Source: an uncultured Anaerolineae bacterium (GTDB taxonomy: Bacteria > Chloroflexota > Anaerolineae > Aggregatilineales > Phototrophicaceae). From it: a stretch of 64,000 bases of DNA. The notes below the pieces were generated by a model. The model had not been told where the DNA came from and made no database searches. It saw only the letters and a list, made by a program, of their open reading frames with translations. The stretch's first letter is position 1. Each line of letters begins with the position of its first letter. Shown in pieces: positions 22,297 through 35,021 of this stretch. A program made the translations under genes and the position numbers. Location of the stretch: positions 1 through 64,000 of the forward strand of contig CALAJK010000010.1 in assembly GCA_937922795.1 (NCBI GenBank), written 5' to 3'.

Positions 22297-23157
22297 CTAC
22301 GCCAGACGGCTGGCCAGCTCGTCCAGGTTCGAACGGACGCTGCCGTCTACCACCCGGTCGCCGGCGCGCACGATCAAGCCGCCCAGAATCCGCGGGTCTA
22401 CCAAGAACGTCACCTCGTCAGCGCCGATCTCTTGCTTCACTTTCTGCTGCTCAGCCTCGCTCAGCGGCATAGCGCTGACCACTTCGACCTGGCCGGAGAG
22501 CTTCCGCGCGGCTTCCGGCACTTTGGCGAAGAAGTCGTCAATCAGCGCCTGCTGACGCTGGGCGTCCAGCGACTCGCCGATCAGACGCTGGGCGACCGCG
22601 ATCGAGATGGCCGCCACCTGCCCGCGCAGGTCAGCCAACTGCTGGTCGCGTTCGGCAGTGGCCGCCGCCCGCGCCTCGGCGCGAATCTTCTCGGCTTCCG
22701 CGCGCGCCTCCGCTTCGATCTGCTTGGCGACCTCATCGGCGCGGCTGCGCGCCTCTTCGATGATCTTGGCCACGTCAGCGCGCGAGCTGGCCAAGATGCG
22801 CTCCGCCTCAGCCTCAGCGTTGCGCCGGGCATTGGCCGCCACCGCTGCGTCTTCCAGCCCTTTTTGAATCTTCGCCGCGCGCGAGTCCAGCAGGTTCACC
22901 AGCGGCCGCCACAAAAACACACCCAACAGCGTGGCGATCAGCAGAAAGTTGATGATCTGCGCGATCAGAAAGCCGGCGTTGATGCCCAGCGGCGTCAGCG
23001 GGCTGACCGCCGCCTCGGCGGCCGCTTCCCCTTCGACGGCCGCCGCTTCAGCCGCGCCCGCTTCGCCCTCCTGCGCCAGCGCCGCCTGGCCGATCAGGAA
23101 GGAAGCCAGCAGCGCCGCCACCAGCAGCAGCCTCCAGAGACTTGACTTGTTCAACAT
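22297..23157 (-). CDS. ATP synthase F0 subunit b fused to the C-terminal part of subunit delta
   Basis: A 286-residue protein. Residues 1-28 look like a cleavable signal or extra membrane segment, followed by an Ala/Glu-rich linker (29-52). Residues 55-90 are the b-subunit membrane helix, and 90-215 a long charged coiled coil (peripheral stalk). Residues 222-286 match only the C-terminal domain of delta/OSCP (VEVVSAMPLSEAEQ then DPRILGGLIVRAGDRVVDGSV). The N-terminal delta domain that binds the top of F1 is absent. It follows atpE in the normal order. Mycobacterial b-delta fusions keep a full delta; this one does not. Confidence 0.85.
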   Translation of the reverse strand: MLNKSSLWRLLLVAALLASFLIGQAALAQEGEAGAAEAAAVEGEAAAEAAVSPLTPLGINAGFLIAQIINFLLIATLLGVFLWRPLVNLLDSRAAKIQKGLEDAAVAANARRNAEAEAERILASSRADVAKIIEEARSRADEVAKQIEAEARAEAEKIRAEARAAATAERDQQLADLRGQVAAISIAVAQRLIGESLDAQRQQALIDDFFAKVPEAARKLSGQVEVVSAMPLSEAEQQKVKQEIGADEVTFLVDPRILGGLIVRAGDRVVDGSVRSNLDELASRLA

Positions 23158-23484: not shown

Positions 23485-24774
23485 TTAAGCGTGTTCTTCG
23501 TGATGCTCTTCGTCGCCGTGATGGCCTTCCATCGCCTGCGCCGAGAATACGATGGTCAGCACCGCGAACACGAACGCCTGAATGCTGGTGATGATGACCT
23601 CCAGCCCCAGGAAAATCACCGGCAGGATCAGCGAGATCAGGAAGGACATCACCGCCAGCAGGATGCCGCCGGCGAACATGTTGCCGAAAAGACGGAAGGC
23701 CAGGCTGATGATCTTACCCAGTTCCGAGATGATCTCCAGCAAACCGACGATGAAGTCAATCGCCCCCAGCGGCTTCTTGCCCAGGCTGCCCAGCGCCCGC
23801 AGGTTGATGAACTTCTGGAAATAGTTCGGCCCTTGGGCGGCGACGCCGAAAACCTGAATGGCGACGAAGGCCACCAGCGCCAGACCGATCGTCAGGTTCA
23901 GATCAGTAGTCGCGCCGCGCACATACGGCGTGATCACCTGGAGATACGGCACGACGCCCTGCTCCAGCGCGTCGGCTGACAGGCCGATCGGCGCGTGCGG
24001 CCACAGCGCTTCCGTGGCCTCTTTGCGCAGCGCGTTGATCTGGTCGTCGCGCTCGGCGCCGGTGACGCCCTGGGCGTCCATCGCCGCGATCAGCGCCTGC
24101 TCTTCCTCGCGCAGCGTCTTGGCTGCCGCCTTCAGCGCCTCTTTGTCCGGCTTGGCGATCTTGCCCTCTTTGTACTCTTCGCAGTGGTGGTAATCTTCTT
24201 CCGTGGCTGGATAACCAGTGAACAGCGGGCTGGGCACGTAGAGCTGGTTGCCCAGCACCGGGTTGCCCGTGGTGACAGTGATGCCGATTTCCGGCGCGGA
24301 GTGGCCGGCGCAGTGCAGCACGCCGACCGTTTCAACGCCGGGGAACAGCTTCATCCAGTTGGCGACCAGCAGAAACAGGAAGATGCTGGCGGCCAGCGGG
24401 AACAGCCAGTTGCGCGCCAGCGGTTTGGCGCCGGCGAAGTTCTTCGTCTGCCCGTAGATGAAATCGCCGATCAGCTCCAGGAAGGATTGGAACCGGCCGG
24501 GCACTTCTTTCGTCCAGCCCTTGGAGACGCGCCAGCCGACGGCGATCAGGATCAGGACGATGATGCTGGCTAACAGCGTGGCGGTGAAGGTGTTCGTCCA
24601 CATGAAGCTTTCGCTCGGCCAGCCTTCTTTGTAAGGCTCGCCGGGGACGACGATCACCGGCAGCGTGGCCGCTGACCCCGCGCTCGGCAGCACGCCGAAC
24701 GTGATGACGCTGCACACCACCAAAAATCCGATCAGGCCGCCGAAGATGAGTAAACCGCGTGTGGTCGCGTTCAT
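23485..24774 (-). CDS. atpB: ATP synthase F0 subunit a (with large insertion)
   Basis: A 429-residue membrane protein of the proton channel, far above the usual 230-300. The core is standard: ISLAFRLFGNMFAGG holds the essential arginine (R361) facing subunit c. Residues 150-280 form a long soluble insertion between early helices, containing an Ala/Glu/Lys-rich helical stretch (205-255). The C-terminus ends in a His/Glu-rich tail (GHHGDEEHHEEHA). The insertion is in frame with normal codon use, so it is not an assembly error. Confidence 0.93.
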   Translation of the reverse strand: MNATTRGLLIFGGLIGFLVVCSVITFGVLPSAGSAATLPVIVVPGEPYKEGWPSESFMWTNTFTATLLASIIVLILIAVGWRVSKGWTKEVPGRFQSFLELIGDFIYGQTKNFAGAKPLARNWLFPLAASIFLFLLVANWMKLFPGVETVGVLHCAGHSAPEIGITVTTGNPVLGNQLYVPSPLFTGYPATEEDYHHCEEYKEGKIAKPDKEALKAAAKTLREEEQALIAAMDAQGVTGAERDDQINALRKEATEALWPHAPIGLSADALEQGVVPYLQVITPYVRGATTDLNLTIGLALVAFVAIQVFGVAAQGPNYFQKFINLRALGSLGKKPLGAIDFIVGLLEIISELGKIISLAFRLFGNMFAGGILLAVMSFLISLILPVIFLGLEVIITSIQAFVFAVLTIVFSAQAMEGHHGDEEHHEEHA

Positions 24775-25170: not shown

Positions 25171-26691
25171 TTACAGGAATAACGATCCAGCGCTGCGCAC
25201 CGCCCAGTCAAACACGGTCTGCGCGCCGATCGTGCCCAACACGATGACCACAATCGACGTGATCGCCAGCACCCAGGCGTATGGGCGCGATACCGGGATC
25301 GGCTTGTCTTCGTCCTCACTGCGATCCACGTACATCACCTTGACGACGACCAGGTAATAGTACAGCCCGATGATCGCGTTCAGCACGCCCACCACCGCCA
25401 GCCAGGTCAGGTCGGCCTGCACGGCGGCGTTGAACACGAAGAACTTGCCGAAGAACCCGGCCGTCGGCGGCACGCCGGCCAGCGACAGCAGCCCGATCGT
25501 CATCATCAGCGCCAACCAAGGGCTGCGCCGGCTCAGCCCAGCCAGGTCGGCGATGGTCTCGCTGCCGGTCGCCTCGCTGAACAGGATGACCACCGCGAAC
25601 GACAGCAGGTTGGTGAACACATACATGAACATGTAGAAGCCCACCGACGCCACCGCCTGCGCCTGCACCACGTCGCTGGCGGACTGAAGCGCCGCCACGC
25701 CGATGAGCGTATAGCCGGCCTGGGCGATGGACGAGTAGGCCAGCAGGCGCTTGATGTTGCGCTGCGCCAGCGCCACCACGTTGCCGAGCGTCATCGAGAC
25801 GACCGCCGAAGCCGCCATCAACTGCACCCAGAAGTTATGAATGGATGCGTCGCCGATCACTAGCGACAGCGGGAACACCGCCACCAAGAAGCGCACCAGC
25901 AGCGCGAAGCTGGCCGCCTTGCTCGCCACGCTTAGGAAGGCCGTCACCGGCGTCGGCGCGCCTTCATAGACATCCGGCGTCCAGAAATGGAACGGCACGG
26001 CGCTGATCTTGAAGCCGAAGCCGACGATGATCATCACCAGCGCTGCCAGCACCGGGATCGGGTTATTGGCGAACGCTTCGCTCGTCAACTGCGCGGCGAT
26101 CAGATACAGGTTGGTCTGGCCGGTGAAACCGTACAGCAGGCTCAGGCCGTAGAGCATGATCGCCGACGCAAACGCGCCGAACAGGAAATACTTGACGCCG
26201 CTCTCGACAGATTTTTGATCGCTCCGTTTGAACGCTGCCAGCAGGTACAGGGGGATCGACGTGGTCTCCAACGCCAGGAAGGCCATGATCAGGTCGGCCG
26301 AGCTGGCCAGCAGCGTCATGCCCAGCGTCGAGACGATGACGATCAGGTAAAACTCGCCTCGATGTCCCACACCCTTGACATCCACCGACATCAGGCAGGT
26401 GATCGCCGCCGCCAGCAGCACCATCACCTTGAAGATCTGCGACAGCACATCATGGCGGATCATGCCGCCCCAGTACAGCCCTTCCGGCGTGGCCGGCGAC
26501 CCTGGCCAGACGATCAGCGGCAGCGCGGCGATCAACCCCAGACCAACCCCAGCCACGTAGGCCACGGTGCGCACCTGGCTCTTCGGCAGATACAGGTCAA
26601 GCCCCAGCACCAGGATGGCAAGGACAGTCAGGGCGATCTCCGGCAGGATCGCCAACAGGCTCGTCGCCAGATCAAACTCGGTAGCGCCCAT
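25171..26691 (-). CDS. nuoN: NADH-quinone oxidoreductase subunit N
   Basis: A 506-residue antiporter-like membrane subunit of complex I with about 14 helices. The family pattern FKISAVPFHFWTPDVYEGAPTPVTAFLSVASKAASFA carries the lysines of the proton channel. It is the last gene of the nuo cluster, 2 bases after the preceding nuoM and 60 bases before atpI. The subunit sits between NuoM and NuoK in the membrane arm and translocates protons. Confidence 0.96.
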   Translation of the reverse strand: MGATEFDLATSLLAILPEIALTVLAILVLGLDLYLPKSQVRTVAYVAGVGLGLIAALPLIVWPGSPATPEGLYWGGMIRHDVLSQIFKVMVLLAAAITCLMSVDVKGVGHRGEFYLIVIVSTLGMTLLASSADLIMAFLALETTSIPLYLLAAFKRSDQKSVESGVKYFLFGAFASAIMLYGLSLLYGFTGQTNLYLIAAQLTSEAFANNPIPVLAALVMIIVGFGFKISAVPFHFWTPDVYEGAPTPVTAFLSVASKAASFALLVRFLVAVFPLSLVIGDASIHNFWVQLMAASAVVSMTLGNVVALAQRNIKRLLAYSSIAQAGYTLIGVAALQSASDVVQAQAVASVGFYMFMYVFTNLLSFAVVILFSEATGSETIADLAGLSRRSPWLALMMTIGLLSLAGVPPTAGFFGKFFVFNAAVQADLTWLAVVGVLNAIIGLYYYLVVVKVMYVDRSEDEDKPIPVSRPYAWVLAITSIVVIVLGTIGAQTVFDWAVRSAGSLFL

Positions 26692-26693
26692 GC

Positions 26694-28415
26694 TTAAGCA
26701 CCCCCTCCCAGAATGGCGATGACCGGTCGCAGGCCGGCCTCAATCATCGGCGCCATGATGATGGGGTAGACCCCCAGGATGATGAGCGGCGCCCCCAGCA
26801 GGAACAAAATGATGCGGTCGGTGATGGTGATATCGGTCACGTCGCTGTAACGCTGCTCGTTGAACTCCCCGAAGAACACCTGGCTGGTGACGCGCAGCAC
26901 GTAAGCGGCAGTGATGACGATGCCCAGCGCCGCCAGCACCACGATGATCGAGTAGTAGTTGGTCAGCGTGAAACCGCCGATCTGCAGCGCCACGTTGGGC
27001 GAGGCGTTCCACATGCCGACGAAGATCGGGAACTCGGCGATGAACCCGCTGAGGCCGGGCATGCCCATGCTGGTGAGGCCGCCGATGATGAAAGCCACCG
27101 CGACCCAGGGCATCCGTTTGACGAACCCGCCCAGGCTGGGGATGTCGCGGGTATGCGCCCGGTCATACACCATGCCGACGCAGCCGAAGAACAGCGCCGT
27201 CATCGCGCCGTGGCTGAACATTTGCAGGCCGGCCCCGGTCATGCCGATGATGTTCATCGAAGCCCAACCCATGCTCACCAGCCCCATATGGCTGACCGAC
27301 GAGAAGCCGATGACGTACTTGAAATCGCGCTGACGGAAGGCGATGAACGCCCCGTAAACTACATTGATGAGCGTCAGGAATACGATCCAGGGCAGATGCG
27401 TCTGCGCCCCCTCCGGCATGAGCTGCACGCCCGCCCGCAGCGCTGCATACGCGCCCAGCTTCATCAGCACGCCGGCGTGGATCATGGAGACGGCCGTCGG
27501 CGCAGCCACGTGGCCATCCGGCGACCAGTTGTGGAACGGGAACACGCCCGCCAGCACACCGAAGCCGATGAACACGAACGGGAACCACAGCTTGGCGAAG
27601 GTGAGCGTCTCGACGCCGGCGTAGCCCGCCACGTCGAAAGCGCCGTTCTCCGCCGCCAGCATCAACTGCGTCATATCAAAGCTGAAGGGGCGGGCGTTCT
27701 CCGCCAGCAGCCCGGACGCTTTGGCCGCCTCAAATACGGCTGCGCCCTCGTTGGTGAAGTAATTGCTGGCCACCAGCACCATAGCGATCACGCCGACCAG
27801 GGCGATGACCGAGCCGATGAGGATGTACAGCGTCAGCTTCATCGCCGCGTATTCGCGCAGCTTCACCCATCCCCAGGTGGCGATGAGCAGATACATCGGG
27901 AAGATGGCGAGTTCGTAGAAGAAGAACAGCACGAACATGTCAATGGCCACGAACACGCCGTAGACGCCGGCCACCAGCAGCATGAAGAACGCCATGAATT
28001 CGCGGGTGCGGTCTTCGATGCGCCACGAGATCAGCACGCCGGCCACCGCCACCATGCCGGTCAGCAGCACCATCGGCGCGTTCAAGCCGTCTACGCCCAG
28101 GTGGTAGCTGATGCCCAAGCTGTCCAGCCAGGGCACTTTCTCTTCGAACGCCAGCCCATCCTTGAACATCTGGGTGGCCGGGTTGGCCAAGCCGGCGGCG
28201 TCGATCGCGGCTTGGTTGGTGTTCACCTGGCCGACCAAGTTGTTGTAGCCGAAGTACACCGCCCCCGACAGCACTAGCACGATCACCGCGGCAGTGATCG
28301 AGATGCCCCGAATCAGGTCGCGCTTGTCGCTGTCGATCAGCAGCAGGATGACGGCCGCTGCGATGGGCGTGAAGATGATGACGCTCAGGATTGGGAACAT
28401 AAATGGTTCGGTCAT
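26694..28415 (-). CDS. nuoM: NADH-quinone oxidoreductase subunit M, divergent second copy
   Basis: A 573-residue antiporter-like subunit. E168 in FFYELAIFPMYLL matches the conserved helix-5 glutamate, and K319 in GVLMKLGAYA is kept. In the region FGVLAGVFPFHNWSPDGH the position of the helix-7 channel lysine is L288. Residues 60-95 and 215-265 form longer loops than in the other copy. It belongs to the NuoM clade with the WSPDGH signature, not to a recent duplicate of 28491-30068. It follows that gene by 75 bases and precedes nuoN. Confidence 0.93.
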   Translation of the reverse strand: MTEPFMFPILSVIIFTPIAAAVILLLIDSDKRDLIRGISITAAVIVLVLSGAVYFGYNNLVGQVNTNQAAIDAAGLANPATQMFKDGLAFEEKVPWLDSLGISYHLGVDGLNAPMVLLTGMVAVAGVLISWRIEDRTREFMAFFMLLVAGVYGVFVAIDMFVLFFFYELAIFPMYLLIATWGWVKLREYAAMKLTLYILIGSVIALVGVIAMVLVASNYFTNEGAAVFEAAKASGLLAENARPFSFDMTQLMLAAENGAFDVAGYAGVETLTFAKLWFPFVFIGFGVLAGVFPFHNWSPDGHVAAPTAVSMIHAGVLMKLGAYAALRAGVQLMPEGAQTHLPWIVFLTLINVVYGAFIAFRQRDFKYVIGFSSVSHMGLVSMGWASMNIIGMTGAGLQMFSHGAMTALFFGCVGMVYDRAHTRDIPSLGGFVKRMPWVAVAFIIGGLTSMGMPGLSGFIAEFPIFVGMWNASPNVALQIGGFTLTNYYSIIVVLAALGIVITAAYVLRVTSQVFFGEFNEQRYSDVTDITITDRIILFLLGAPLIILGVYPIIMAPMIEAGLRPVIAILGGGA

Positions 28416-28490
28416 AGCGTTTTCCTTATGCCCTTCCTCGTCCGACCGGCAGCCCTACGCCTCGGCCAGACCGGGCCAGGGAGAGAAGGT

Positions 28491-30068
28491 CTACCCACCC
28501 AAAATCCGCAGCACCGTATCATTGATGACCGGCAGGATCCAGTTCGGCACCACGCCGGTGATCAGCATCAGCACCAGCAGCGGCGCGATCGCCACCACCT
28601 CGCGCACCTCGATCTCTAGGTGGTAATCGCGCCACTTCAGGTTGAACGGCCCGTGCAGCACGGCGCGGATGCCCTTCAGGATGTAGCCGCCGGTGAACAG
28701 CAGGCCGAGCATGGCGATGACCGTCAACCCAGTGAACACCGGCCACGACCCGCGCACCACCAAAAACTCGCTGATGAACCCGTTCAGCCCCGGCAGCCCC
28801 AGGCTGGCCATGCTGGTGAACACGAAGATCGTGCCGTAGATCGGCGCTTTCACCCAGAACCCGCCGTACTCGCGCAGATCGCGGGTGTGGGTTTTGTGGT
28901 AGATCGCGCCGGCGAGCAAGAACATAGCCGCCGAACTGAGGCCGTGGTTGAACATCTGCAGCACCGCGCCGTTGGTCGCCAGGATGGCGCTCTCCAGGTG
29001 TTGGCCGGTCGCGTCCAGCCAGTTCTGGCCGTAGGCCAGCGCCGCCACCGCCAACCCCATGGCCACGAAGCCCATGTGGTTGACCGAACTGTAGGCCACC
29101 AGCCGCTTGATGTCGTTCTGTCCCAACGCGGCGAAAGCCCCCAGCACGATGCCCAGCATCGCCAGGAAGGCGAAGATGCCGGCCCAATTGGTCTGGATCA
29201 CGCCCAGGATGTTGACATCCGCGATCCACACGTCGGGAAAGAAGGGGATCACCAGCCGCAGGAAGCCATACGCGCCCAGCTTGAGCATGACGCCGGCCAG
29301 CAGCATCGAGCCGGCCGTCGGGGCTTCGCCGTGGGCGTCCGGCAGCCAGGTGTGGAACGGCCACACCGGCACTTTGATGCAGAAGGCGACGAAGAAGCCG
29401 ATGAACGCCCAGGCTTTCACCGCTTCGATGCCAATGCCCAGGAATGTGCCGTTTTCGCCGGTGAAGGTCGGCCAGATCTGGGTGAGCATCTGGATGTCGA
29501 ACGTCCCGGCCGTCCAGCCGATCAACTGGGTGGCCAGCAGCATGCCCAGCGAGCCGCCGATCGAGTAGATCATGAACTTGGTGGCGGCGTACTTGCGGTT
29601 CGGCCCGCCCCACTGGTCAATGATGAAGTACATCGGCACCAGGCTGAGCTCGTAGAACAGGAAGAAGATCATCAAGTCGAGCGCCACGAACACGCCCAGC
29701 AGGCCGGTCTCGAAGAACAGCAGCAGCGCCATGTGCATGTTGATGCGCTCTTCGATCTCAAAGCTGATCAGGATGGCCAGCGGCGTCAGGATGCCGGTCA
29801 GCAGCACCATCGTCGCGCTGACGCCGTCAATCCCCACGTGCCACGAGGCGCCGATCAGCGGGAACCAGGGCGTGTTCACCACCATCTGATAGCCAGCCGC
29901 CGCCCGGTCGTAGCTGAAGAAGACGGCGATGCACAGCGCGCCGATGATCGTGGCCAGCGCCAGCGCCCCCCAGCGCGCCACGGCGCGGGGCAGCAGCAGC
30001 ACGATGACCGCGCTGAGCGCCGGGGCGATCACCAGAAACGTCAGGATGTCTATGCCGAAGATTGCCAT
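28491..30068 (-). CDS. nuoM: NADH-quinone oxidoreductase subunit M, canonical copy
   Basis: A 525-residue antiporter-like subunit with the standard channel residues: E140 in FFLFYELSLVPMYF and K232 in FCIKVPVWPFHTWLPDAHGEAPTAGS, plus the helix-8 lysine in GVMLKLGAYG. It lies between nuoL (21-base gap) and the divergent nuoM. It probably forms the usual M position; the order of the two M subunits in the assembled arm cannot be read from the sequence. Confidence 0.96.
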   Translation of the reverse strand: MAIFGIDILTFLVIAPALSAVIVLLLPRAVARWGALALATIIGALCIAVFFSYDRAAAGYQMVVNTPWFPLIGASWHVGIDGVSATMVLLTGILTPLAILISFEIEERINMHMALLLFFETGLLGVFVALDLMIFFLFYELSLVPMYFIIDQWGGPNRKYAATKFMIYSIGGSLGMLLATQLIGWTAGTFDIQMLTQIWPTFTGENGTFLGIGIEAVKAWAFIGFFVAFCIKVPVWPFHTWLPDAHGEAPTAGSMLLAGVMLKLGAYGFLRLVIPFFPDVWIADVNILGVIQTNWAGIFAFLAMLGIVLGAFAALGQNDIKRLVAYSSVNHMGFVAMGLAVAALAYGQNWLDATGQHLESAILATNGAVLQMFNHGLSSAAMFLLAGAIYHKTHTRDLREYGGFWVKAPIYGTIFVFTSMASLGLPGLNGFISEFLVVRGSWPVFTGLTVIAMLGLLFTGGYILKGIRAVLHGPFNLKWRDYHLEIEVREVVAIAPLLVLMLITGVVPNWILPVINDTVLRILGG

Positions 30069-30089
30069 AACCTCTGTTCTCCCCCGCGC

Positions 30090-32426
30090 CTAGCCGGCGG
30101 CCTGTACCAGCACGCCCGATGAGGCGACGAAGACGAGCGCGATCACGATGGCGGCGATGATGATGAGCAGCAGATACTGCTGGACGCGCCCAGTCTGTAT
30201 GCGCCGGAACCACGCGCCAAACAGGGCGACCAGTTCGGGGATACCGTCGCCGACGCCGTCAATCAGCCAGGTGTTGAGCAGCTTCAGGAAGTCGCCGATC
30301 CAGGTGGCGATCCGCGCGATCCAGTGCAGGATGCCGTCGATGATGCCCCGATCGAGAAACTGCGATACGGCGACCCGCGCCAACCACTGCGACGGGTTGA
30401 TGAACACGGCCGTGTACAGCTCGTCGAAGTAGTACTTGTGCTTCAGCACCGTATGCACTGGCCCCAGGAAGCCGACCAGCGGGTCTTCCTGCCCGGCTTG
30501 CAGCGGCTTGCGCCAGTACACCAGATAGCCGACCGCGATGCCGCCGAGCGCCACCGCAAACGAAGTCAGCACCGGGATCCAGTTGAACGGCGGCTTCTCC
30601 GGTTGGATCTCCGGCAGCAACGTGTACTTGACGAACTCGAAGAACGGGTTGACCTCCGGCGAGAAGATCGGCCCCAGCACCGGGAAGGCCGGCGGCACGC
30701 CAACGAAGCCGGCGGTGATGGCGAAGAACGCCAGGATGATGAGCGGCAGCGTCATGGTGAAGCTGACCACGCCGCGCCCCAGATTGGCGTGGCGGGCGGC
30801 CTCGGTGCGCGGCTCGCCCCAGAAGGTCAGCCCAAGCTGGCGCATGGTGTAGAAGGCCGTCAGGAAGGCCGCCACCGCCAGCAGGATGAAGACCAGCGCG
30901 TGCGGCCCAAAACCCTTGCTGGCCCCCAGCCAGGCGTCGGCCAGGATTTCATCTTTCGACCAGAAACCGGCGGTGATCAGCGGCAGGCCGGCCAGCGACA
31001 GGCCGCCGATGAGGAAGGTGTAGAAAGTCACCGGCATCGTCTGGCGCAGCCCGCCCATGTTCATCATGTCCTGTGGGTCAAAGTGCGCGTGGGCATGGGC
31101 GTCGTGGTGCGCCTCATGCTCATCGTGCGCCGCGTGGTGATCATCATGGTGGGCGTGGGCTCTCGCGTGCGCTTCGCCATGCTCCATGCCGTGGATGACC
31201 GCGCCCGACGCCATGAACAGCAGCGCTTTGAAGAATGCGTGGGTGATCAGGTGGAAGGCGGCGGCGATGTACGCGCCGATGCCCAGCGCCGCCATCATGA
31301 ACCCAAGCTGCGAGATGGTCGAGTAGGCCAGCACCCGCTTGACGTCGTTCTGGGCGACGGCGATGGTGGCGGAGAACAGCGCCGTGAACGCGCCGATCAC
31401 GGCCATCAGCATCATCGGCGCCAGCAGTTGGCCTTCGTGCGGGTGGCTGCCGGCCTCCAGCAGCGGGTACATGCGCACGATGGCGTAGATGCCGGCGGAG
31501 ACCATGGCCGCCGCATGGATCATGGCGCTGACCGGCGTGGGACCTTCCATCGCGTCCGGCAGCCAGACGTGCAGCGGGAACTGCGCCGACTTGCCGATAG
31601 TGCCGATGATCAGGAAGATGCCGATCAGCCCCGCCGCGCTCAGCCCGCCGAAGATGATGGCCGGCGTGGTCGCCAGATGCTCCAGCACTTCATGGTTGTA
31701 CAGGATTTCGCGGAAGCTGAGCGTGCCGGTCTCAGCGTACAGATAAGCGATGCCCAGCAGCATGATCACGTCGGCTACGCGGGTGGTGGTGAACGCCTTG
31801 ATGGCCGCCTCATAGGCGCTGCGCTTCTCGAACCAGAAGCCGATGAGCAAATACGAACACAAGCCCATCACTTCCCAACCGACGAACAGCAGCAGCAGAT
31901 TGTCGGCCACCACTAACGTCAGCATCGCCCCGGCGAACAGGGCGATGAGGGCGAAAAACCGTGACTGGCGGGCGTCGTGCGCCATGTAGCCGATCGAGTA
32001 GATGAAGATCATGGCGCAGGCCAGCGGCACCATGACCAGCATGACCACCGTCAGCGGATCAACCAGCACCCCCATGCTGAACGAGCCGACGCCGGTCGCC
32101 ATCCAGGGCAGGCTGCTCTCGAACACCTTCTTGCCCAGCTTCTCAACCCCCAGCCCCTGCCCCACCACGATCAGGCTGAGGATCCACGCCAGGCCAATGC
32201 CGATCATCGCCACCACAATGCTGACGACGCGGCTGGGGAAACTGACGACGGGCACGATCATGCCGTCGTAATCGGGGTGATTATGGTCGTGGTAGCTGTG
32301 ATCCGTGGCCGGCACCAGCCGCGCCCGGTTGGTGAACAGCATGATGATGAAAAACGCCACCAGCGGCCCGACCGGGATCAACCAGGGCAGCAAATTAGGG
32401 TCGCTCAAAAAATCATTCGGGTTCAT
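30090..32426 (-). CDS. nuoL: NADH-quinone oxidoreductase subunit L (long form)
   Basis: A 778-residue distal antiporter-like subunit, longer than the usual 610-680. Core motifs are present: VGWEVMGLCSYLLIGFW with E186, and GKSAQFPLHVWLPDAMEGPTPVSA with K279. Two additions stand out. Residues 412-448 form a His-rich loop (15 His). The lateral-helix region between DRGIIDG (692-698) and RRIQTGRVQ (741-749) spans 42 residues, where I would expect roughly 16-18. The latter fits a longer arm that must bridge an extra NuoM. The N-terminus starts at the ATG at 32426. Confidence 0.95.
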   Translation of the reverse strand: MNPNDFLSDPNLLPWLIPVGPLVAFFIIMLFTNRARLVPATDHSYHDHNHPDYDGMIVPVVSFPSRVVSIVVAMIGIGLAWILSLIVVGQGLGVEKLGKKVFESSLPWMATGVGSFSMGVLVDPLTVVMLVMVPLACAMIFIYSIGYMAHDARQSRFFALIALFAGAMLTLVVADNLLLLFVGWEVMGLCSYLLIGFWFEKRSAYEAAIKAFTTTRVADVIMLLGIAYLYAETGTLSFREILYNHEVLEHLATTPAIIFGGLSAAGLIGIFLIIGTIGKSAQFPLHVWLPDAMEGPTPVSAMIHAAAMVSAGIYAIVRMYPLLEAGSHPHEGQLLAPMMLMAVIGAFTALFSATIAVAQNDVKRVLAYSTISQLGFMMAALGIGAYIAAAFHLITHAFFKALLFMASGAVIHGMEHGEAHARAHAHHDDHHAAHDEHEAHHDAHAHAHFDPQDMMNMGGLRQTMPVTFYTFLIGGLSLAGLPLITAGFWSKDEILADAWLGASKGFGPHALVFILLAVAAFLTAFYTMRQLGLTFWGEPRTEAARHANLGRGVVSFTMTLPLIILAFFAITAGFVGVPPAFPVLGPIFSPEVNPFFEFVKYTLLPEIQPEKPPFNWIPVLTSFAVALGGIAVGYLVYWRKPLQAGQEDPLVGFLGPVHTVLKHKYYFDELYTAVFINPSQWLARVAVSQFLDRGIIDGILHWIARIATWIGDFLKLLNTWLIDGVGDGIPELVALFGAWFRRIQTGRVQQYLLLIIIAAIVIALVFVASSGVLVQAAG

Positions 32427-32444: not shown

Positions 32445-32753
32445 CTACCACTTCAGCAGATCAACGTCTTCGACGATGACCGACCGGCGATTGCGGTAGA
32501 CCGAGATGATGATCGCCAGGCCGACGGCCGCCTCGGCCGCAGCGACGACGAAGACGAACGCCGTGAAAGCCTGTCCCGCCATGTTCAGCGGCGACACATA
32601 CCGCCAAAAGGCGATGAGATTGATGTTGACCGCATTCAACATCAGCTCGACGCCCATCAATACCGCCACCGCATTCCGCCGCGACAGCACCCCGTAGGCG
32701 CCGATGCAGAACAGGCCGGCGGCGACCGCTAGATACATCCACAAGGGAACCAT
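32445..32753 (-). CDS. nuoK: NADH-quinone oxidoreductase subunit K
   Basis: A 102-residue three-helix membrane subunit. Conserved glutamates lie in GVELMLNAVNINLIAF and in AAEAAVGLAIII, the E-channel residues of NuoK. The ATG at 32753 has GGAG 9 bases upstream; an upstream GTG overlapping nuoJ is less likely. It sits between nuoJ and nuoL in the normal order. Confidence 0.95.
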   Translation of the reverse strand: MVPLWMYLAVAAGLFCIGAYGVLSRRNAVAVLMGVELMLNAVNINLIAFWRYVSPLNMAGQAFTAFVFVVAAAEAAVGLAIIISVYRNRRSVIVEDVDLLKW

Positions 32754-32768
32754 AGCTCTCGACTCCAC

Positions 32769-33293
32769 CTATTCGTCATCGCGGGCGATGACAATCGCGC
32801 CGATCATCGCCGCCGTCAGCAGCAGCGACGCCACCTCAAACGGCAGCACGAACTGGTTGGGGCTGACGAGCGCTGTGCCCAGTTCAGCCGTGCTGGCCAC
32901 CACTTCCGAAACCTCCCGGCCGGCCTGTGCGCCGCCCACGCCCCACACCGGCAGGATGACGCCCACCATCAGCAGCACGAACAGCAGCCCGGCGGCGATG
33001 GCGCTCATCACCCACTGTCGGTTATAGATATCGCGCAGACGGGTCATGCTGCGGGTGAGCATCACCGCGAAGACGATGAGGATGGCAATCGCGCCGATGT
33101 AGACCAGCACCTGCACCGCCGCCATGAACGGCGCGCTCAGCAGCACGAAAAACCCGGCTGCGCCGAACAAACTCAGCACCAGATACAGCGTCGCGTGGAT
33201 GAGGTTGCGCGTGGTCACAACGCCCAGCGCGCCGCCCAGAATACAGGCGGCGAAAATCAGGAAGGCAATCGTCTGCACATTCAGTTCGATCAT
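32769..33293 (-). CDS. nuoJ: NADH-quinone oxidoreductase subunit J
   Basis: A 174-residue membrane subunit with five predicted helices. It has the typical LIHATLYLVLSLFGAAGFFVLL segment (helix 3 region, with the pi-bulge tyrosine area) and VLVYIGAIAILIVFAVML. It is part of the E-channel link between the quinone site and the antiporter subunits. nuoI, which commonly separates nuoH and nuoJ, is missing here. Confidence 0.95.
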   Translation of the reverse strand: MIELNVQTIAFLIFAACILGGALGVVTTRNLIHATLYLVLSLFGAAGFFVLLSAPFMAAVQVLVYIGAIAILIVFAVMLTRSMTRLRDIYNRQWVMSAIAAGLLFVLLMVGVILPVWGVGGAQAGREVSEVVASTAELGTALVSPNQFVLPFEVASLLLTAAMIGAIVIARDDE

Positions 33294-33369: not shown

Positions 33370-34617
33370 TTAATCCCCGGCGGGGGCGCTCACTCGTTCG
33401 AGTTCGCGTTCCAGCGCGGCGGCGTGGCGCGCTTCATCTTCCAGCCGCTGCCGGCGGCCCGTGTTGCGGATCATCGTCAGCACGATCCCGATCACCACCA
33501 GGTTGCCCAGCAGCAAGATCACCGCCTGCGGCAAATTCGCCACGAAATCGGTCGCCTGCGCCGGATCGGGAGCCAGTCCCAGCGCCCGCACCACCTGGAG
33601 CAGGAAGGCAGTCATCAGCACGTTAATGATCGAGATGGGCACCAGGAATTTCCAGTTGAAGGCCATCAACTGGTCAATGCGCACGCGGGGCACAGTGCTG
33701 CGCAGCACCAGCGAGAACAGGTAGATGATGAACGTCTTGATGCCCAGGTAGATGAACCCCAAAACCGGCACTTCATGGACGAACGGCCCTGACCAGCCCC
33801 CCAGGAAGATGACCGCCGCCAGCACCGCTATAGTGAAGGCGTGAATGAACTCGGCCGCCATGAACATGCCGAACTTGAAGCCTGAGTACTCAATATTGTA
33901 GCCGGCGATGATCTCCGATTCGGCTTCGATCAGGTCGAACGGCGCGCGTCCGGCCTCGGCCAAGTTGGCGATGAAGAAGATCACCGCCGCCACCGGCGCC
34001 ATGACGATGAACCACATCCCCTGCTGAGCGATGGTGATGCCCTGCATGCTCATCGTGCCGGCCAGCATCACCGGTATCAGCAGCGCCAGCACCAGCGGCA
34101 CTTCATAGCTCAGCAGTTGGGCGATGGTGCGAAACGCGCCCAACAGCGCGTACTTGTTGTTGCTCGACCAACCGGCCACCACCACCTTGACTGTGCCGAT
34201 CGACGACACTGCCATGAAATACAGGACGCCGATGCTCAGATCGGCGCCCACGTGCAGCGGCGTGAACGGGATGACCGCCCAGACCAGAATGACCGAGGCG
34301 AAGGCGATGATCGGGGCCAGGTTGTAGATGAACTTGTCAGCGCCCAACGGCGTGATGTCCTCTTTCGTCAGCAGCTTGACCGCGTCGGCCACCGACTGGA
34401 GCAGGCCATACGGACCGACGCGGTTCGGGCCGATGCGATCCTGAACTCGCGCCGCGACCTTGCGTTCGATGTAGATGAGCATGATCACCGTCACCAGCGG
34501 GACGATCGCCACCAGCACCACACCCAACAGGATGTTGATGAACTGTGCCAGATCTGGCGCGATGCCCAGGTTCAGCAAGCACTGAACGAAGTTATTGATG
34601 CTGCACACAGATTCCAT
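33370..34617 (-). CDS. nuoH: NADH-quinone oxidoreductase subunit H
   Basis: A 415-residue membrane subunit lining the quinone chamber. The hallmark YIERKVAARVQDRIGPNRVGPYGLLQ (about 49-75) and EAGRAPFDLIEAESEIIAGYNIEY (about 225-248) carry the acidic and basic residues of the quinone tunnel. The C-terminal 35 residues are a charged cytoplasmic tail longer than usual. It lies between nuoA and nuoJ; nuoB, C, D, E, F and G, normally between A and H, are absent. Confidence 0.96.
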   Translation of the reverse strand: MESVCSINNFVQCLLNLGIAPDLAQFINILLGVVLVAIVPLVTVIMLIYIERKVAARVQDRIGPNRVGPYGLLQSVADAVKLLTKEDITPLGADKFIYNLAPIIAFASVILVWAVIPFTPLHVGADLSIGVLYFMAVSSIGTVKVVVAGWSSNNKYALLGAFRTIAQLLSYEVPLVLALLIPVMLAGTMSMQGITIAQQGMWFIVMAPVAAVIFFIANLAEAGRAPFDLIEAESEIIAGYNIEYSGFKFGMFMAAEFIHAFTIAVLAAVIFLGGWSGPFVHEVPVLGFIYLGIKTFIIYLFSLVLRSTVPRVRIDQLMAFNWKFLVPISIINVLMTAFLLQVVRALGLAPDPAQATDFVANLPQAVILLLGNLVVIGIVLTMIRNTGRRQRLEDEARHAAALERELERVSAPAGD

Positions 34618-34658: not shown

Positions 34659-35021
34659 CTAAACCCATTCCAGCGCGCCCTTGCGCCAGGCGTAGATCAG
34701 CGCGTCCGCCAACAGGAAAATGAACAGGAAGCCCGCCATGAACCCAAAGAAGTCCAGTTGATTATAGGCCAGCGCCCAGGGGAACAGCAGGACGATCTCC
34801 ACGTCGAACACCAGGAAGATCAGCCCATAGATGTAGTACTGCACTTTGAACTGCACCCACGTATCGCCCACCGTCTCCACGCCGCATTCGTAAGTGGACT
34901 GCTTGAGGGGATTGGGTTTGCGCGGCGCGAACAGCCGCGCGCCGACGATCGGCAGCACCGGGACCACCCATGCGATCGCGAAGAAAACGCCGATGAAAGC
35001 CCACTCGTTCAATACCGCCAT
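34659..35021 (-). CDS. nuoA: NADH-quinone oxidoreductase subunit A
   Basis: A 120-residue three-helix membrane subunit. It has the conserved KQSTYECGVETVGDTWVQFKVQYYIYGLIFLVFDVEIVLLFPWAL region, whose cysteine loop contacts the quinone site. It is first in the nuo cluster behind a near-consensus promoter. Confidence 0.96.
   Translation of the reverse strand: MAVLNEWAFIGVFFAIAWVVPVLPIVGARLFAPRKPNPLKQSTYECGVETVGDTWVQFKVQYYIYGLIFLVFDVEIVLLFPWALAYNQLDFFGFMAGFLFIFLLADALIYAWRKGALEWV

Follow-up and report, generated by a model that had tools for sequence, protein, structure and literature searches.

A NuoM type without the TM7 lysine in the two-NuoM complex I genes of an uncultured Anaerolineae bacterium

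Complex I variants with a second NuoM, the 2M complexes, go back to the description of Chadwick et al. 2018 (ISME J; cited in PMC7117926, PMC8004040, PMC6606698 and PMC9040806). As that description is quoted in PMC7117926, the Chloroflexi complexes have the gene order nuoL-M-M-N and keep nuoBCDI apart, with nuoC and nuoD fused. A second nuoM is found beside nuoN in Chloroflexus aggregans (PMC8004040), and nuoM is duplicated in C. aurantiacus (PMC3150298). The NuoL proteins have 26-residue insertions, which Ca. Manganitrophaceae also have in the NuoL proteins of their Complex_I_1 and Complex_I_2 (PMC9040806), and a fifth proton per two electrons is a published hypothesis for the 2M form. Here we analyze a 64,000-nucleotide stretch of DNA (the window; positions 1 to 64,000 of contig CALAJK010000010.1) from an uncultured Anaerolineae bacterium, in which nuoL is followed by two nuoM genes, M1 and M2, and then by nuoN.

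The source genome (G000) is a metagenome-assembled genome (MAG) of 3.6 Mb in 127 contigs, 85% complete. In the window, nuoA-H-J-K-L-M1-M2-N run in this order on the minus strand, from 35021 down to 25171. Contig C127 (L018) encodes NuoB, a fused NuoCD of 619 aa and NuoI, the expected missing partners of this arm, and presumably supplies its quinone-side module. Arm and C127 genes together belong to a form known from earlier reports on Chloroflexi, the 2M complex I, and represent no new kind. They share with the described form, for example that of Anaerolinea, the two nuoM between nuoL and nuoN, a NuoL lengthened by ~26 residues and a separate nuoB-CD-I with nuoCD fused; within what the citing papers relay of the 2018 description, we found no difference of kind. 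An initial annotation of the window, made from its letters, had placed two-M forms in other phyla; the form is indeed known, and the Chloroflexi themselves have it (PMC7117926, PMC8004040). The second cluster of C. aggregans and C. aurantiacus (nuoABCDHJKLMMN) likewise has an extra nuoM beside nuoN and shares its genome with another complex I, of the ordinary kind, but it keeps B, C and D, whereas the window arm stands alone. Ca. Manganitrophaceae belong to another phylum (Nitrospirota), and their Complex_I_1 and Complex_I_2 have a long-helix NuoL outside an extra-pump complex, a situation that recurs in the single-M operons described below.

As the initial annotation had read them, the two nuoM genes are clearly different: in phmmer comparisons M1 and M2 match each other at ~210 bits, versus ~1150-1240 bits for each against itself. 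The AlphaFold2 (AF2) model of M2 (mean predicted local distance difference test score, pLDDT, 86) has an intact fold, with mycobacterial NuoM as its best PDB match (Z 47.5); sequence searches of the PDB gave no match labelled Chloroflexota or 2M complex I. What distinguishes M2 is the lysine of transmembrane helix (TM) 7, which is present in 101 of 102 single NuoM proteins and in all 70 M1 but in none of 70 M2. Leucine takes its place in 67 of the M2 sequences, threonine in two and methionine in one. These residue counts use 70 M2/M1 pairs from Chloroflexota, which were sampled unevenly; many of the 2M rows are closely related to one another. M2 keeps the TM5 glutamate (70/70), the TM8 lysine (67/70), the TM12 glutamate (70/70) and the conserved axis histidines, and nearly always has a TM8 histidine at the place of NuoL His254 (Table 1), a proposed switch (PMC13358369). 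In the same 2M operons the TM7 lysine is retained in every NuoL (69/69) and NuoN (67/67), as are the other key residues of both. Like the other subunits, M2 is under purifying selection, with a ratio of nonsynonymous to synonymous substitution rates (dN/dS) of 0.025-0.18. This low ratio, together with the invariance of Leu288 in 26 M2, indicates a kept state and not decay, and dN/dS and the invariant residues rule out a decaying duplicate. In the papers named above that cite Chadwick et al. 2018, the missing lysine goes unmentioned.

The phylogeny places M2 apart from M1. Our trees are quick searches, with support by the Shimodaira-Hasegawa-like approximate likelihood ratio test (SH-aLRT) only. 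On the NuoM tree the M2 sequences form one clade (100% SH-aLRT) that is not sister to M1, which rules out an origin of M2 by tandem duplication of M1; the sister of M1 is a group of single-M sequences from long-helix operons. The row L232 (G142) takes different positions on the NuoL and NuoM trees, with which either a loss or a late gain of M2 in this sister group would agree. A search of a plasmid collection yielded NuoM sequences from Phocaeicola and Prevotella (L279, L280) that resemble M2 in the TM7 leucine, the TM8 histidine and an SPDGH motif. These, all M2 and one Chloroflexota single M (L244) form a clade with 100% SH-aLRT in which every sequence lacks the lysine. Unlike M2, each of the two Bacteroidota proteins is the sole NuoM of its operon, and the Phocaeicola NuoL helix has ordinary length. 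The Bacteroidota are represented by these two records, and the nuo-bearing 'plasmid' of Phocaeicola is perhaps a piece of chromosome. Judging from these operons, there is a NuoM type without the lysine that can act as the only NuoM.

The second feature of the arm is the C-terminal lateral helix of NuoL. Between DRGIIDG (residues 692-698) and RRIQTG (from residue 741) lie 42 residues (699-740; 30207-30332), compared with ~16 in most single-M rows; coordinates and spacing are exactly as first annotated. A second IDG motif (WLIDG) follows the first after 26 residues and stands 16 residues ahead of RRIQTG. In the AF2 model (mean pLDDT 80.5, lower in the helix region) a long helix spans residues 665-726 and a second one residues 728-740, and the close match to E. 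coli NuoL stops near residue 684-690. The protein otherwise keeps the TM7 lysine, the TM8 histidine and other key residues of ordinary NuoL; a His-rich, variable loop (AHARAHAHHDDHH...) at 31071-31175 is modeled with low confidence. The ordinary, single-M complex I of the same genome, on contig C110 (nuoJ, L, M, N and other nuo genes), at first seemed to support a link between long helices and 2M, with a spacing of 16 in IVDG-16-RRIQTG. Full alignment overturned this, as C110 NuoL has short spacing yet carries a 29-residue insertion just upstream, for a total of 92 residues. Because the spacing measure alone misses this long helix, we redid the comparison on total helix length, counted from KYYFDELY to QTGxxxxY.

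We scored 69 L-M-M-N and 102 L-M-N operons gathered from many Chloroflexota genomes. All 69 of the former have helices of 88-92 residues. The single-M operons fall into discrete classes: 66 at 62-64 residues, 32 at 88-93, three at 115 and one at 143, with no intermediates. The window NuoL, at 90, thus exceeds the commonest single-M class by 26-28 residues, confirming the lengthening of about 26 first proposed. The further idea that the long helix matches an extra subunit fared unevenly. It fits every 2M operon, but in 36 of the 102 single-M operons, C110 included, the helix is as long or longer. A long helix is therefore no proof of a second M. Equal spacing in single-M Chloroflexota was the finding that the initial annotation had named as contrary to it; by total length this is what we found in those 36 operons, and not in the other 66.

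The steps in length are built of tandem repeats of ~26-27 residues. IDG motifs are spaced by 26 in the window, 27/26 in L197, 27/27/26 in L262 and 26/26 in L266. Self-alignment shows the repeat clearly in L184, L197, L255 and L256 and weakly in the window (p ~0.008, best lag 30), with lags of 30 and 26 standing out across the 2M set. Helices of three modules (114-115 residues) or four (143) occur in L262 (G166:C78), L197, L259, L261 and L266, with one nuoM wherever the operon was fully read. We also looked for an additional M in trans for the long-helix single-M operons, and among 15 genomes no surplus NuoM scored over the family cut-off. Genes could be hidden by incompleteness in the MAG of the window; this does not apply to G003, G005 and G025, each assembled as one contig, in which the NuoM genes over cut-off are just those of the operons themselves, so that no spare M exists there. 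In G166, with its 143-residue helix, we found only L, M, N and one weak antiporter-domain hit, and no extra NuoM. A NuoL tree from which the helix region was left out requires three or more changes of helix length and two or more of the 2M state. Since M2 is one clade and the 2M changes on this tree are two, the 69 of 69 represents nearly one event and is not independent evidence.

Taken together, we find it reasonably probable that the window encodes most of a 2M-type membrane arm (A, H, J, K, L, M1, M2 and N), of which M2 is an integral part with non-standard chemistry that probably adds no fifth proton through the usual Glu-Lys mechanism. Four antiporter-like subunits, as initially annotated, is the best reading of an intact M2 that has the NuoM fold and evolves under purifying selection. 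With gene order standing in for subunit order, the arm would most likely run L-M1-M2-N, and the lateral helix of NuoL, one 26-residue module longer, would strap all four. M1 is of the classical NuoM type and M2 of an old, separate one, with leucine in place of the TM7 lysine and an added NuoL-like TM8 histidine; M2 would relay along the polar axis by other chemistry. From sequence we infer that M2 is physically in the arm, along with the assembly and subunit order, and we likewise infer the proton behavior of a complex that contains it. In Paracoccus NuoM the TM5/TM7 Glu-Lys pair is reportedly essential for catalysis and the transverse helix purely structural (PMC9802314), and the electrostatic-wave model includes the E144/K234 pair of E. 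coli (PMC9271201). Without its TM7 lysine M2 should not pump by the standard scheme, and a fifth proton by that mechanism appears unlikely.

Several points weigh against this interpretation. In both Bacteroidota operons a lysine-less protein is the sole NuoM, so such a subunit may be compatible with a working, and even a pumping, complex; this weakens the notion that M2 is 'dead' for want of the lysine. Additionally, the pairing of C127 with the window's contig (C10) is presumptive in a MAG that is 85% complete, and our searches turned up neither structures nor proteomic or proton-pumping data on a complex I from Chloroflexota.

The best-surviving alternative concerns the cause of the long helix and is compatible with the arm proposed above. 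The helix may have lengthened on its own account, through tandem duplication of a module that is either tolerated or reaches past NuoN, with M2 joining a complex whose helix was already long. The excess of helix-length changes (at least three, versus two for 2M) and the one-M operons with three or four modules, as well as C110, point this way. We nevertheless hold it only tentatively, given that no short-helix 2M operon turned up and that separate lengthenings differ little in size (26-31 residues), as though the dimension of a subunit played a part. A little less probable still is that M2 is a full fourth pump held by the long helix, so that five protons move per two electrons, or five drive uphill electron transfer. 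The constant pairing of 2M with long helices, the retention of most key residues in M2 and the solitary lysine-less NuoM of Bacteroidota would fit such a pump; the absence of the lysine from all 70 M2, despite the essential role reported for the Glu-Lys pair of NuoM, and the long helices of single-M operons speak against it. The 'real longer pump' of the initial annotation needs exactly this working fourth pump, and we do not uphold it.

A bolder proposal, which we regard as improbable, makes the NuoL helix a modular ruler. Each 26-27-residue repeat would span one antiporter-like subunit and set the number in the arm, and the slots would be filled either by a second gene, the lysine-less M2, or, where a single-M complex has two, three or four modules (as C110 has two or more), by further copies of its one NuoM. 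Finally, M1 and M2 could be alternative occupants of one slot, isoforms swapped with conditions and never together, as the separate origin of M2, the sole-M role of its closest kin and the existence of long helices without a second M would allow, but this is very unlikely when the two genes are same-strand neighbors in all 70 operons collected and no L-M-M-N operon has the 63-residue helix that would suffice for isoforms.

Table 1. Complex I genes and features of interest in the window
Feature	Position	Strand	Basis
nuoA	34659..35021	-	NCBIfam NuoA models, best 109.6 bits, under equivalog cut-off
nuoH	33370..34617	-	NCBIfam NuoH 352.5 bits, over cut-off
nuoJ	32769..33293	-	NCBIfam NuoJ models, best 117.7 bits, under equivalog cut-off
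nuoK	32445..32768	-	NCBIfam NuoK 137.5 bits, over cut-off
nuoL, 778 aa, lengthened lateral helix	30090..32426	-	NCBIfam NuoL 593 bits, over cut-off
Lateral-helix module 1, FLDRGIIDGILHWIARIATWIGDFLK, NuoL residues 690-715, extra relative to a 63-residue NuoL	30282..30359	-	Alignment; IDG spacing 26; AF2 helix 665-726
Lateral-helix module 2, NuoL residues 716-741, equal to the single module of ordinary NuoL	30204..30281	-	Alignment
nuoM1, 525 aa, L-proximal, classical NuoM, TM7 Lys (K232) kept	28491..30068	-	TIGR01972 472 bits
nuoM2, 573 aa, N-proximal, lysine-less NuoM type	26694..28415	-	TIGR01972 418 bits
M2 Leu288, where other NuoM have the TM7 Lys (K234 in E. coli)	27552..27554	-	Alignment to K234 of PDB 3rko_M; invariant Leu in 26 M2
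M2 His313, TM8, at the NuoL His254 place	27477..27479	-	In 68/70 M2, <=1/102 single M, 0/70 M1
nuoN, key residues kept	25171..26691	-	TIGR01770 416 bits, over cut-off

The nuo cluster of the window is adjoined by ATP-synthase genes. One of these (22297-23157) encodes a fusion of the b subunit with a delta/OSCP domain (PF00430, PF00213), and another (23485-24774) an a subunit of 429 aa that Pfam matches in two stretches, implying a long insertion within it. Elsewhere in the genome, two further loci bear antiporter genes. The C110 complex I has a NuoJ (L016:10597-11904) with a DUF4397 domain inserted mid-protein (PF14344, 71 bits). The other locus, on C55 (L017, G000:C55:22001-42000), is Group-4-hydrogenase-like, with L- and N/M-like antiporter, 49-kDa-like and maturation-protease-like genes. 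Among the collected operons, ~830 bases separate M1 and M2 in L160 and L162, and a record titled Pleurocapsa minor, a cyanobacterium (L092), carries Chloroflexota nuo genes and is probably mistitled.

Added pump subunits might gear complex I up, and whether they do is a bioenergetic question for which the 2M complex is the natural test. Two facts of sequence make that question testable: the M2 of Chloroflexota is without the TM7 lysine that is central to current models, and the length of the NuoL helix is untied from the number of NuoM genes. If the helix did act as a ruler, an ordinary gene set would give rise to a complex I of variable arm length.

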